From a virus: 26,841 bases of DNA. Positions 17,180-22,953 of this stretch are shown one piece after another (the first letter of the stretch is position 1; each line of letters begins with the position of its first letter). The stretch is taken from positions 1-26,841 of the IMG/VR virus record IMGVR_UViG_3300049489_000397, one strand, 5' to 3'. The notes below the pieces were generated by a model. It was not told the origin of the DNA. It did no database searches and worked only from the letters and a program-made list of their open reading frames with translations. Both the position numbers and the translations under genes were made by a program.

Positions 17180-18381
17180 CAAACCCTCGGGATTTCTAAA
17201 ACCACCCCTAGCGTAAGATCCACGCTTGCGAGCTTGTTGTGATCGAAAATTTTCTCCCACTGAGAAGAGTCGTTGTAATACTTCATGGCCAACCCCTGAA
17301 GCGTATCTCCACTTTGTACGCGGTGGCGGGCCAAAGGAATTGTGAGCGAAACATTGCGAAGCTGTACTGCAAGACTTGCAAGGAGTGCGTTCAGATTGAA
17401 CATGCCATCAGACACCTTGGCCACATGCTGCGCGTTCAATGTTGCACCGGAAATGCTCGTGACTTTTGAAACCCCGGCCTCCGGCTGCTGGCCGCCAATG
17501 CTTCGCTGATAACCAGAGATCTTATTGCGGGCATTCTTGATGAGTCCTAAAGCCCGCTGCACGGAAGACTTCAGGGCTTCCACTTCGCCAAGTACCGTGT
17601 CCACGAAGCCTGTCACCAGGTTTACGGCTGCCGCCACATCCGAGATTGCGGCGTTGATCTGATCCGCAAACGACTGTGGCATGGACGCTGGAACATCGCT
17701 TTGGAACTCCAAAACCGTGGAAATATACTGCGCAAGAGCGCGGTTTTGGTTGTAGGGGATTGTTTGCTGTTTGGTCACGATGATGAAATCTTTGGGCTGA
17801 TTGAATCCAACCACCAAAAAGGTGATCTGGTAGTCAATATCGGCCAAGGTTTTCATCTTAAACGCGGCTTCAGAGATAAATCCATACCGCTGCCACTCTT
17901 CACCAAGCGTGATCTTCACTAAAAGGCCAGCTATACGAATGGCTTCCACTTGCTCTTGCAGGGCTTGTGGATATTTTCGCCAAAGCTCACGGTCAAACGT
18001 AGCGTCTGAAGACTCTTTGAGCTTCTTCGCCTTAAACCGGCCACGAATTGTGATGTCATTTTCCTGCGGCCCAAGCACTTGAACCGTGGGCTCGCTGCTT
18101 CCGGGGTAGTAATTTTTTACGAGTTTTTGCTGCCCACCAAAATCCAGCGAATCGTGAGGCATGGCATCGGACACAAGCCTGACAACATCGCTCTCAAGCT
18201 CTTTGCCGTCCTTGTTGATGGGCGTGATGATAAAGCCTGATTTGAAATCGTGGCGCTCGTGCGCGGCTTTGAGCAAAGCCTTTCGCTCTTCAGCGGAAAG
18301 GTAGTTGTTGAACGGCGACATGAGCCGCTGCTTTATCGAATCCACACCTTTTGAAAAATTAAAGTTATTTAGTGGATTCAT
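17179..18381 (-). CDS. Baseplate/tail-end protein with C-terminal LysM domain (400 aa)
   Basis: Residues 353-400 (from HRVQSGDTLQGLAMKYYNDS, with WEKIFDHNK and ending VVLEIPRV) form a LysM module, common in proteins linking tail tube and hub (P2 gpX and XkdP-like). The N-terminal 200 residues are beta-rich, with TVQVLGPQENDITIRGRFKA and ITFLVVGFNQPKDF. This recalls proteins encoded between tape measure and hub in Mu- and T4-like tails. Residues about 225-310 are helical. The start shares a base with the tape-measure TAA (TAATG). In tails, LysM modules usually serve in assembly at the tube tip rather than cell-wall binding, but this is inference. Confidence 0.82.
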   Translation of the reverse strand: MNPLNNFNFSKGVDSIKQRLMSPFNNYLSAEERKALLKAAHERHDFKSGFIITPINKDGKELESDVVRLVSDAMPHDSLDFGGQQKLVKNYYPGSSEPTVQVLGPQENDITIRGRFKAKKLKESSDATFDRELWRKYPQALQEQVEAIRIAGLLVKITLGEEWQRYGFISEAAFKMKTLADIDYQITFLVVGFNQPKDFIIVTKQQTIPYNQNRALAQYISTVLEFQSDVPASMPQSFADQINAAISDVAAAVNLVTGFVDTVLGEVEALKSSVQRALGLIKNARNKISGYQRSIGGQQPEAGVSKVTSISGATLNAQHVAKVSDGMFNLNALLASLAVQLRNVSLTIPLARHRVQSGDTLQGLAMKYYNDSSQWEKIFDHNKLASVDLTLGVVLEIPRV

Positions 18382-20177
18382 TATCTACCCGCCGTCGCAC
18401 CGGCAGCCTCAAAGCCCCGGCCAGATGCTTGCGTTTTATTCCTGGCAGCCTTCAAGAGCTGATCCTTGATCGTAAACGCCACACGATCAGGCTCAATCAT
18501 TTCCTTGAAGTTGTTCTGCATCTTCACATCCATGTTCACCGTTTGGTTCACAATGGCACCTGTGCCGTCTTCGATCTGACCGAAGATGCGCTTATACATT
18601 TCCTCCATGCCGAAGGTTCCTGCTGCATTGATCTGCTCCATGCTGAAGCCACCGCCTGTGAGCAACGATCTTACTTGGTTCACAAACTCCATAATCCATA
18701 GAGCAAGACCTTGAAATCCCATCATGGCCAGGCCCAAAGTCTTCGCCAAAAATTCTAAGGTTGAGGAAAAGATTGTGACCAGGTTGATGAAGCCTAAGAA
18801 CTTCGATGGATCTAGCAAGAACCCAAGCCCACGCGCAAGTAAATCAAACCCGTCTCTGAGCACACTTAAAATCCCAGAGAACACAGACAGTGCGTTTGTG
18901 ATCCTAGGAAGCTGCTTTGCCACCTCTTCAAGCGCAAAGAGCTTCGCATACGCGAGTGCGCGGGATAGGAATTGGAAAATCCCCACGAACAACAAAAGTG
19001 GCATCAGCACGGAACTAATTAAAATAGTGAGCCCATTCAAGACTGTGAAAATTCCAGTTAGGCTCATACCGCCAAGCAAACGCAAAGCGCCTCCAGCAAA
19101 GGACATTAGAGTCCGGCCAAAAGCCATAAGCATTCCGGTGATCGACGGAATGGCGATTCCAAAAGCGCCAAGCAAATACCGAAGTCCCTGACCCAAGGCG
19201 ATCATCCCGGCAATCTTTCCGGCTGATGAAACATCCCCGGCCAAAGAGCGCATTTGCATGAGATCTGCAAACAAGGTCTGTGGATCTTTCAAGAAATCCC
19301 CAACCATTTTGGCGAGCTTCTCAGCAATCTGCTTTGCGGCCTTCATGACTTCCGGAGAATTGATCTGCGAAAGCATGTTTGAAAGAAATCGGTTTATCAC
19401 ATCACCAAGTGGTCTTAGCAAATTCGTGACATTGTTTTTAAGGACTGCGAGTTGCCCGGAGAGTGTTTTCACACGCGCACTGACTGCATCCGTGTCGTTT
19501 GAGAATTGTCTCATGGCATCCGTCAACACCTGGAGCCGTTTTGCTGGCTGAAGTGCATTCCACTTCTTTGTGTTGTTGAGGAACTCTTTCATGGGCTGCG
19601 TTTCAGATGTGAGACGCACAAAAAGCGTATCTCCCATCGACGCCTGGCCTTCCATCGTGCGGAGGAGCTGGCCGAAAGCTTCCTGCGGATCTACGCCCAT
19701 AGTAGGAGCAGACTTCAAGAAGACGCGGGAAAGCTCAGTCACATTGGAAAGATTCTGTCCGGCCAAGCCCTTATTCATGAGCATCGGCGTGAGCAACTTT
19801 GTCGTGTTGAGAAGATCCTTGAAATTGAGCGAGTTCTCGATGGAAAGCGCATTGAGCTTTTCCATCACACCGGCAGCACCGCGCATCCGATCCTCAAAGG
19901 TCATCCCCGTCTGCACCAGCGTGTTTGCAAGAGCGATCTGGGCATTGGCAAAATCATCGCTCACGCGGCTGGCTGTGGCGAGCATCCCAAGGAAGCTTCC
20001 ACCAAAAAGACCACCTGCAAAGCCCAAGGACATGCGAGCCAAGGCAAATTGCGCATTGGCCGCTGATGAAGAGATCTTATCAACGGCTCCCGCGACTGCT
20101 TCCGAGTTGGTGATTGCGGCACCAACATCGAACTTGAACTCTGTGAGGACTGTGAAGGCTTGGGCTGCGATTGGCAT
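18381..20177 (-). CDS. Tail tape measure protein (598 aa)
   Basis: This long, mostly helical Ala-rich protein directly follows the frameshifted tail-assembly chaperone gene, the classic place for the tape measure. The N-terminal part (residues 1-75) is Ala/Ser-rich; 75-320 is helical; a hydrophobic region with several potential membrane helices lies at about 323-403 (FTVLNGLTILISSVLMPLLL). A further helical region follows, with a basic end. At roughly 0.15 nm per residue, 598 residues would give a tail of about 90 nm; that rule is general knowledge, not measured here. The ATG directly follows the TAA of the frameshift extension. Confidence 0.93.
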   Translation of the reverse strand: MPIAAQAFTVLTEFKFDVGAAITNSEAVAGAVDKISSSAANAQFALARMSLGFAGGLFGGSFLGMLATASRVSDDFANAQIALANTLVQTGMTFEDRMRGAAGVMEKLNALSIENSLNFKDLLNTTKLLTPMLMNKGLAGQNLSNVTELSRVFLKSAPTMGVDPQEAFGQLLRTMEGQASMGDTLFVRLTSETQPMKEFLNNTKKWNALQPAKRLQVLTDAMRQFSNDTDAVSARVKTLSGQLAVLKNNVTNLLRPLGDVINRFLSNMLSQINSPEVMKAAKQIAEKLAKMVGDFLKDPQTLFADLMQMRSLAGDVSSAGKIAGMIALGQGLRYLLGAFGIAIPSITGMLMAFGRTLMSFAGGALRLLGGMSLTGIFTVLNGLTILISSVLMPLLLFVGIFQFLSRALAYAKLFALEEVAKQLPRITNALSVFSGILSVLRDGFDLLARGLGFLLDPSKFLGFINLVTIFSSTLEFLAKTLGLAMMGFQGLALWIMEFVNQVRSLLTGGGFSMEQINAAGTFGMEEMYKRIFGQIEDGTGAIVNQTVNMDVKMQNNFKEMIEPDRVAFTIKDQLLKAARNKTQASGRGFEAAGATAGR

Positions 20178-20650
20178 TTACTGACTTCTCCCGGACTCCC
20201 GATCAAGTATGTAGTTCAATGTCGAACACACAACTTTCAGTTGCGCCGGAGTCAGTTCAAAAACATCCTTTGGCCTCATACTGGTGTATCGACATATCCA
20301 AGTAATCAACTTCCATGTTTCTGAAGTTCGATCTTGAAGTTTCCCATTTCGGTATCCTCCAGTCCGGCGACCTTCGCCACGACCTTAAGACACTGCATAA
20401 ACTCTGCATAAGTGAATAATCCATCAAGATCCTCGACTTCAACCGCACTGGGCTTTTTGTCGTTGATCTGGACCAGAAGCATCTTCAGCATCTCTTTTTG
20501 GAGAGCAAAGCCGTAGGCAAACGCATTGTCACCCTTGACCTTGCTGCTCGCAGCCTGAGTTGCAAGCTCCTGGTCCTTGATTTTTGGATCTCTTAGCAGA
20601 ACCACCTTTCCAGTTGAAAGCGTGATCTTATGAACGAAAACTTCCGACAT
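20178..20650 (-). CDS. Tail assembly chaperone, -1 frameshift product (157 aa, joined)
   Basis: The zero-frame part (20650-20306) is followed in the -1 frame by an open stretch ending with TAA at 20180-20178, right before the tape-measure ATG. Shifting at GGGAAAC joins residues 1-104 to 53 more, beginning LQDRTSETWKL, with CRYTSMRPKDVFELTPAQLK in the middle and ending RESGRSQ. Such an 'xRPxDVxELTPxQL' C-terminus looks like a real domain, not chance sequence. In lambda G/GT and P2 E/E', a minority of ribosomes make the longer chaperone, which recruits the tape measure and tube subunits. Nothing else accounts for the 128 bp before the tape measure. Confidence 0.85.
20306..20650 (-). CDS. Tail assembly chaperone, zero-frame product (114 aa)
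   Basis: This 114-residue helical protein starts MSEVFVHKITLSTGKVVLLR, a small beta region, followed by helices (FAYGFALQKEMLKMLLVQIN and FTYAEFMQCLKVVAKVAG). Size, composition and position between tail tube and tape measure fit the P2 gpE / XkdN-type chaperone. The ATG has CAGGAG 9 bases upstream, in the 50-bp gap after the tube gene. Codons 103-104 (GGA AAC) form the slippery site, after which the zero frame continues only ten codons to TGA. The short form is expected to be the more abundant of the two. Confidence 0.87.
   Translation of the reverse strand: MSEVFVHKITLSTGKVVLLRDPKIKDQELATQAASSKVKGDNAFAYGFALQKEMLKMLLVQINDKKPSAVEVEDLDGLFTYAEFMQCLKVVAKVAGLEDTEMGNFKIELQKHGS
20339..20345 (-). 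promoter_or_regulatory. Slippery heptamer GGGAAAC for -1 ribosomal frameshift
   Basis: The sequence reads G-GGA-AAC with the codon boundaries of the chaperone gene (codons 103 and 104). It fits the X-XXY-YYZ rule and differs from the lambda G/GT site GGGAAAG by one base. A 6-bp inverted repeat, AACTTC and GAAGTT with a 9-nt loop (20328-20308), starts 10 nt downstream and could be a weak stimulatory hairpin. The zero-frame stop lies at its 3' edge. Confidence 0.85.
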
Positions 20651-20700: not shown

Positions 20701-21126
20701 TTACAAAGCGATGCGGCCAGATGCTTGGAAGTCGAGCTTCTTGGTCATCTTGTCGGCAAGTCCCGACTGTTGGCGGCTCATCTTCCACTGCACATCAAAA
20801 TACGCATACGACTTCACTTGTCCGTTGGCGTATTCTTCGGTGGTCACGAAAGAGTAATCGCTGATGCCGATTCCGTTCAGGTTGTTCGTCACCAGGCCGT
20901 CAATGAACTCGTCCACTGAAGCGTCTTTCACTTCGAGCGACACGGAACCCGACCAACCTTCAATCGACTGATCCCCTTCGGGAACAGGGCGACCAACATA
21001 GTTGGTGCGCATGAAGGTGGAGTCTTGGTTCACATCCACCGATGTGATGTCCACGATGCTTGAAAGTTGGCCGTTCTCGAAAACCTTGAACTGCCCCTTA
21101 TGACCGCGAATTGATGGTGCTGCCAT
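20701..21126 (-). CDS. Tail tube protein (141 aa)
   Basis: The protein begins MAAPSIRGHKGQFKVFENGQ and carries the regions VDITSVDVNQDSTFMRTNYV (about 25-44) and GDQSIEGWSGSVSLEV (51-66), ending TKKLDFQASGRIAL. Length and beta-rich pattern match contractile tail tubes of the XkdM type, which stack as hexamers inside the sheath. It is encoded directly after the sheath (3 bp between genes) and before the chaperone, the standard order. Expression is expected to be high. Membership in the tube family rests on pattern and context. Confidence 0.88.
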   Translation of the reverse strand: MAAPSIRGHKGQFKVFENGQLSSIVDITSVDVNQDSTFMRTNYVGRPVPEGDQSIEGWSGSVSLEVKDASVDEFIDGLVTNNLNGIGISDYSFVTTEEYANGQVKSYAYFDVQWKMSRQQSGLADKMTKKLDFQASGRIAL

Positions 21127-21129
21127 TGA

Positions 21130-22953
21130 TTACCCCTCGCTTTCCGTGACCACAACACTCTCGCCGATCTCCGCCTGGAGAACGATGTAGCGCATGGAGC
21201 TGAAAATTCTTCGTTTGTACAAAATCTTGAACATGCCCGCTGCAACAACCGCGTCGGTGTTGAGGCTTTCCGTGTCCACCAGGATCGGAGAGCCACTCTT
21301 CACATCCTGCGCTCCGGGCACAATGCCGGATTGAACCAGCGTGGTGTCGAAAGTCAGAATCGCACTCTTCACTTCCGTGCGCTTGGCAGTAGAGTTCACC
21401 GCGTTCTGATAGTTCTTCAAGAACTGCGCGATGGAATCGGTCAGGAAGTAGGCCATGCGACGGCGAAGAATGGTGCGCTTCGAGCTGTTAAGGATCTGAG
21501 TGCAAACCGCGTTCTTCACGAGGAAGCCCACATCCGGATCAAGCTCCAAGGCGCAAACACCAGCCGCATCCAAGGCGATGAATCCGTTGCGGGATTCCTT
21601 CGTCTTAAGATCCACAATCCCTGCGAGGTATTGCGTGTTGCCGGTGAAAGAGAGTGCCACATGGGGAGACACTTGCGTGAAAATCGAGGCGATCCAAGCA
21701 GCCGGAGGAGTATATTCCAAAGCCCCGTCGATGCTTGTTTGCACCCACGGCCAGCCGTAAATGATGTTGCCCGCATTGTCGCGGTAATTCGCAACATCGG
21801 CGATGGCCGCAGCCCGCGTTTGCACTTCAGGTCCGCATACGATCACCATTTTGTTCTCGTAAGTGGCCGCATGGACCTTCAGGTAGCCATTGCGAGTGGC
21901 GTTGTATTCGTCAAGGAAAAGGACATTTCCGGCTTTTTCCACACCAGCTTTGTCGATGGCCGCTTCATAGTCCGTATTGACAATGCTGCCGTCCGATCCG
22001 CCCGCAAGAGCAGTGGCAGCCGCATTGGCCGGAGCGCCCGTGGCGTCCAAAACCGTCACATCCATGAGCTGCGATCCTGCGAACGTCGCCGCAGTGATCG
22101 TGGCCAAAGTCAGGCCGTCATAGATCTCAACCGGGAGAACTGCGCCGGGATTGGTGTCTTCAAGAGTGACCTTGAAGCCCGCATCAACCGCTGTCACACC
22201 CTCTTGAGTGGTCGTGATCGTAACTCCCGCCGAAACATCAACCGCATTCGGAGTCACGGCTCCCGCTGCGGTATGCGTGACTGTAATGGTCGCGCCGGAG
22301 ACTTCGGAATCAAATCCAGAAATGGCTTCAATGACTGCTTCGATCTTGGCCGCAATTTGGGCTGCGGTATCGGCTGTGAGAATATCAACCTGATTCGCGG
22401 TTGAACCACCAATGACAGGGGCGGTTTGCGTGTTCGCTCCATCGGTGACGTTAAGCCAAACGTGTTGAAGACCCCCGGCAAGCCGAAAATGCTTACCAGT
22501 GCCGACCACATCAAAAAATGAACCAGTGTTGTTGACAAGAATTGTGTACACTTCGGCCAGAGCTGCGATGTCCGCAGCCGTGTCACCAATGGTGACTTTG
22601 AGATTGTTGCCGTAAGCGCCCAAATACTTCGCATCGAATTTCAGCTTCGCTGATAATGACAGCGTTGCTTTTGCTGCTCCTGTAGGTGCCACTCGAATGA
22701 TTCGTAACTGTCCAAACTTCTTGTTCTTGAGTTGCTTGTTGCCTAGAAACGATGATTTTCCGTAGATCTCGTGGAGTTCGCCGATGGAACCCATGGGGAG
22801 ACTGAGTTCTGTTGGCCCACGCTGGAACTGCCCGACCAGGATTCCAACATTCGCACTTACACCGCTGATGGACGCCGGAGGCGCTTGCTCGTCGATGATG
22901 ATTCCGTCAATGTCGTCAAACTGAGTCGGATCATTCGTTCTGAAAATTCCCAT
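21130..22953 (-). CDS. Contractile tail sheath protein (607 aa)
   Basis: The N-terminus (IIIDEQAPPASISGVSANVG near 18-37, then GILVGQFQRGPTE) and the C-terminal domain (IAQFLKNYQNAVNSTAKRTE, and later KILYKRRIFSSMRYIVLQAE) match phage sheath proteins. Residues 318-330 (KAGVEKAGNVLFL) onward include KMVIVCGPEVQTRAAAIADV, part of the conserved middle domain. About 105 residues (roughly 150-256), including HVWLNVTDGANTQTAP and SGATITVTHTAAGAVTPNAV, look like an inserted beta domain that also occurs in other phage virion proteins. This gene establishes the contractile tail. Confidence 0.94.
   Translation of the reverse strand: MGIFRTNDPTQFDDIDGIIIDEQAPPASISGVSANVGILVGQFQRGPTELSLPMGSIGELHEIYGKSSFLGNKQLKNKKFGQLRIIRVAPTGAAKATLSLSAKLKFDAKYLGAYGNNLKVTIGDTAADIAALAEVYTILVNNTGSFFDVVGTGKHFRLAGGLQHVWLNVTDGANTQTAPVIGGSTANQVDILTADTAAQIAAKIEAVIEAISGFDSEVSGATITVTHTAAGAVTPNAVDVSAGVTITTTQEGVTAVDAGFKVTLEDTNPGAVLPVEIYDGLTLATITAATFAGSQLMDVTVLDATGAPANAAATALAGGSDGSIVNTDYEAAIDKAGVEKAGNVLFLDEYNATRNGYLKVHAATYENKMVIVCGPEVQTRAAAIADVANYRDNAGNIIYGWPWVQTSIDGALEYTPPAAWIASIFTQVSPHVALSFTGNTQYLAGIVDLKTKESRNGFIALDAAGVCALELDPDVGFLVKNAVCTQILNSSKRTILRRRMAYFLTDSIAQFLKNYQNAVNSTAKRTEVKSAILTFDTTLVQSGIVPGAQDVKSGSPILVDTESLNTDAVVAAGMFKILYKRRIFSSMRYIVLQAEIGESVVVTESEG

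Follow-up and report, generated by a model that had tools for sequence, protein, structure and literature searches.

Introduction

Many phages, lambda among them, make two proteins from one tail assembly chaperone gene by a -1 shift of reading frame. In the lambda G/GT model, the short form binds the tape measure, the extension carried by the long form binds the tube protein, and neither is present in the virion (PMC5009743). G-T sites have also been reported from haloarchaeal siphoviruses, with GGGAAAC in HCTV-1, AAAAAAC in HCTV-2 and GGGAAAG in HCTV-5 (PMC5009743); these viruses differ from the one described here in host and tail type and are likened to it by published site only. In the SEA-PHAGES set, GGGGGAA is common among genes annotated as frameshifted, almost all of which are tail assembly chaperones (PMC10885494).

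Here we analyse a 26,841-base virus record, hereafter the window, in which all features given coordinates lie on the minus strand. As in phage lambda (J02459), where G/GT is flanked by V (tail tube) and H (tape measure), the window has a gene between presumed tube and tape measure genes in which slipping into the -1 frame late in the first ORF would yield a fusion bearing a second domain. The lambda heptamer, GGGAAAG, is one base from the window's GGGAAAC, as a first-pass annotation of the window had pointed out. Unlike lambda, the window phage is predicted to have a contractile tail, and its extension is 53 residues long compared with 144 for the annotated lambda T ORF. A closer model is phage P2 (AF063097), given its contractile tail and the shared gene order of sheath (FI), tube (FII), E, E' and tape measure (T); a -1 frameshift likewise adds the short E' extension to gpE to give gpE+E'. 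The first-pass annotation had called the locus "lambda G/GT-like", a description that suits its gene order, shift direction and probable role but does not extend to sequence homology, since profiles compared with lambda G and T gave nothing. It had also placed the novelty in the presence here of a mechanism known as a class, and we agree.

Results

Gene order and lineage

A tail sheath protein encoded at 21130-22953 matched two tail sheath families (phrog_279, 5.7e-19; phrog_23, 3.3e-18), which indicates a contractile tail. Genes for a major head protein, baseplate wedge proteins and a DNA polymerase are likewise present in the window. Directly after the sheath gene lies an ORF of 141 codons (20701-21126) presumed to encode the tail tube protein; its sole family match is phrog_12993, whose function is unknown. 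An ORF of 598 codons (18381-20177) is presumed to encode the tape measure protein from its position and length. Family scans gave no match for this ORF, and a homologous ORF follows the extension in relatives. Both of these identities rest on gene order, not on a functional family match. The order sheath, tube, chaperone, extension, tape measure is common to the window and its relatives.

Searches with the chaperone as query found no viral relatives. The tube protein as query led to 17 viral contigs, and its alignment as query to 41 uncultured viral contigs, across which the presumed tube protein is strongly conserved. It had no match among 50,697 phage records, and no relatives were found in bacterial genome contigs; therefore, no host can be assigned. 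The capsid protein is about 33% identical to those of cultured phages (among the best matches listed), and the sheath protein matched one phage record, weakly. By sequence, the lineage appears to consist of uncultured myophages without close cultured relatives. The chaperone region was present in 40 of the 41 contigs, which together with the window gave 36 distinct chaperone sequences (window included); the 35 others are 28-53% identical to that of the window.

An in-phase heptamer and an open -1 frame

The candidate chaperone gene (20306-20650) runs from ATG to TGA and encodes 114 residues. At codons 103-104 of 114 it contains GGGAAAC (20345-20339), the first base of which is the third base of codon 102, so that the frame-0 reading is G_GGA_AAC. 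A -1 slip after N104 would add 53 residues encoded at 20178-20339, LQDRTSETWKLITWICRYTSMRPKDVFELTPAQLKVVCSTLNYILDRESGRSQ, to the first 104 and produce a protein of 157 residues. The extension ends at a TAA (20180-20178), and the tape-measure ATG adjoins it at 20177. The first-pass annotation had described this in-phase heptamer and a -1 frame open to a TAA abutting the tape-measure start, and all of its figures proved to be right.

Conservation of the extension

At all 36 distinct loci, the -1 frame remains open for 38-67 codons past the chaperone stop, longer than the +1 frame does. The extensions align as one domain with the consensus LWRxIAWICRYTSxRPxDVxxMxPWQ...LxxILxxESG. Mismatches among related loci are distributed over -1-frame codon positions 1, 2 and 3 as 31%, 19% and 49%, close to the in-frame pattern of the chaperone body (34%, 13% and 53%). 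This third-position bias in the -1 frame argues that the extension is selected as a protein. In two relatives (L044 and L059), the slippery site is separated from the conserved T block by a far longer stretch than in the other relatives, which suggests a flexible linker.

Slippery motifs across the family

We searched for motifs in the zone 25-60 bases from the chaperone stop, with 2000 codon shuffles of the same region as the null. An in-phase X_XXY_YYZ heptamer (Y = A or T) was present at 27 of 36 loci (shuffle mean 2.5, maximum 10), and either this motif or GGGGGA was in phase at 31 of 36 distinct loci (mean 3.7, maximum 11). GGGAAA was found in phase near the stop at 21 of 36 loci; outside this zone it occupied 1 in 3750 codon positions of the gene, and near the site it was seen at 0 of 864 off-phase positions. 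The motif types were GGGAAAG, GGGAAAC, CCCAAAG, AAAAAAG, TTTTTTG, GGGGGAG and GGGGGAA. P2 shifts E to E' at T_TTT_TTG, which differs from the window's sequence; TTTTTTG occurs in relatives L047 and L054. The first-pass annotation had tied its claim to the fate of the heptamer and extension in relatives: a known slippery motif, GGGAAAC or another, is retained at these 31 loci and the extension is open and conserved throughout, and the claim stands.

The remaining five relatives have the conserved -1 extension without a recognised motif. Four have NNNAAAG in phase, namely G_TCA_AAG (L029 and L049), G_GAA_AAG (L033) and A_CAA_AAG (L048), and the fifth has C_CCC_CAG (L031). These sequences are candidate non-canonical -1 sites.

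Predicted structures and profile comparisons

Direct family scans of the window's proteins gave no chaperone match. The first-pass annotation had suggested profiles of XkdN, gpE/E' and G/GT for comparison, which gave little: profile comparison (hhalign) with lambda G and T and P2 E and E' returned probabilities of about 1% or less and no homology, and matches of individual relatives were below threshold (Phage_TAC_7, E 0.089; XkdN-like and tail assembly chaperone PHROGs, E 0.025 to 0.075).

The short form and the extension were folded separately with AlphaFold2 using 36-row alignments, which gave pLDDT values of 90.9 and 91.4, respectively. A Foldseek search of the PDB with the short-form model placed the HK97 tail assembly chaperone 2OB9 at the top (probability 0.84, E 0.08). 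A second aligner gave Z 7.8 for YqbN of B. subtilis (3KLU), which we take to be a tail chaperone of the XkdN kind, 6.2 for RBSTP2171 (3FGX) and 5.6 for 2OB9, with unrelated entries at 2.6 or below except 5IR0 at 5.1. The predicted fold aligns with these three proteins over 85-90 residues at 7-15% sequence identity, and none of the entries shows a frameshifted form. A BFVD fold search with the short form returned many annotated viral tail assembly chaperones. Because the Z values are moderate, we treat the predicted phage tail chaperone fold as supporting evidence beside position and conservation. The extension was modelled as a confident three-helix domain. Its fold matches were weak, with Z of 3.2 or below against the PDB; among them is a tail assembly chaperone from a Microbacterium phage (1.2 A over 43 columns, E 1.7).

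In phage T4, gp26 (L062:3803-4429) and gp51 (L062:4480-5229) are paralogues (BLASTP E 2e-6, profile E about 1e-12). Relative to gp26, gp51 has an extra C-terminal stretch of approximately 46 residues, so that the two form a short and long pair reminiscent of G/GT but involving no frameshift. Among the extension domains, those of L051 (E 1.6e-4) and L027 (E 0.0046) match phrog_634, the family of the gp51 C-terminus. A link between the extension and the gp51 C-terminus was considered and is unsupported: at least 4 of 200 column shuffles beat the profile score of 13.0, and higher scores were obtained elsewhere in gp51 than at its C-terminus.

Candidate stimulators of the shift

The 6-bp hairpin that the first-pass annotation had reported 10 nt after the heptamer, AACTTC-(9 nt)-GAAGTT (20308-20328), is present, but its role as a signal is unsupported, with folding of the region no better than in dinucleotide shuffles (z = +0.15). 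Across 31 loci, the mean z was -0.90 for downstream folding and -0.27 for gene-body controls (p = 0.09). Values below -2 were found at 23% of sites and 3% of controls, an excess due to some loci. These data suggest that some relatives may have a downstream stem, with none supported in the window.

A Shine-Dalgarno-like GGAGG (20356-20360) lies 10 nt upstream of the heptamer, a spacing that resembles that of known -1 stimulators. Such matches of at least five bases were found at 7 of 31 loci against a background of 5.8% (nominal binomial p about 0.002). Since most relatives lack the element, GGAGG is only tentatively proposed as a stimulator.

Discussion

By its position, shift direction, size and predicted fold, the window gene is identified as a putative G/GT- or E/E'-type tail assembly chaperone. 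We infer that a -1 slip at G_GGA_AAC in this 114-residue chaperone gene produces a 157-residue fusion of the G-T type, a reading to which we assign a probability of roughly 95%. The site, the frame and the conserved extension can be read directly from the DNA; the slip is deduced from them, and how efficient it would be and what each product would bind are borrowed from lambda. A minority of ribosomes on the gene would move back one base at the heptamer, where the tRNAs in the P and A sites would pair anew with GGG and AAA, and would then read 53 more codons to the TAA adjoining the tape-measure start. On the lambda model, the tape measure would be coated by the abundant short form, and the three-helix C-terminal domain of the rarer long form would bring tail tube subunits to it. 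Both forms would leave before the tail is completed.

The extension could instead be a separate small gene with its own start overlapping the chaperone gene, in which case no frameshift would be necessary. In the extension frame, the window does have a TTG six codons ahead of the RYTS block, and some ATG, GTG or TTG precedes the conserved block at 12 of 36 loci. However, the other 24 loci have no such codon in the extension frame upstream of the block, the start codons that exist vary in position among loci, and starting at the window's TTG would remove part of helix 1. The in-phase slippery motifs also far exceed chance, and we consider this explanation highly improbable. The open -1 frame and heptamer might also be an accident, or the product of a decayed or misassembled gene. 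GGGAAAC is not rare in itself, occurring four times in the window where chance predicts 3.8, and it is the phase, position and conservation of the heptamer, not its mere occurrence, that exceed chance. The same -1 arrangement and conserved domain recur at 36 of 36 distinct loci among relatives whose chaperones have diverged to 28-53% identity, and this conservation already refutes an accidental or degenerate origin, which we regard as extremely unlikely.

Short and long forms could, on a further alternative, arise by transcriptional slippage, for which runs of six A or T in four relatives (AAAAAAG in L019 and L053, TTTTTTG in L047 and L054) would give the polymerase an opportunity, and those four loci may fit such a mechanism. 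In the window and most relatives the site is instead GGGAAAC or GGGAAAG, and polymerase slippage is unlikely in the window because its site has no run of more than three identical bases. The codon phase for tandem tRNA slippage is also kept, whereas polymerase slippage would need no phase, and for the family the explanation seems very remote. Ribosomal frameshifting remains our preferred reading. Within it, we lean slightly towards the view that in one lineage the shift site has changed repeatedly while both products were conserved, which would mean that heptamers so far less fully characterised serve as natural -1 sites. This would cover GGGAAAC/G, CCCAAAG, AAAAAAG, TTTTTTG and GGGGGAA/G, together with the non-canonical GTCAAAG, GGAAAAG, ACAAAAG and CCCCCAG.

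With these findings, a gene that is split or overlooked by ORF callers can be annotated correctly. They also provide a family-wide set of 36 putative natural frameshift sites, from a lineage whose tail tube has no match among the phage records searched, and this set would show which slippery sequences are interchangeable with the fusion retained. Collectively, the data suggest that another uncultured lineage of contractile-tailed phages uses the G/GT strategy, an extension of a sort that was expected.
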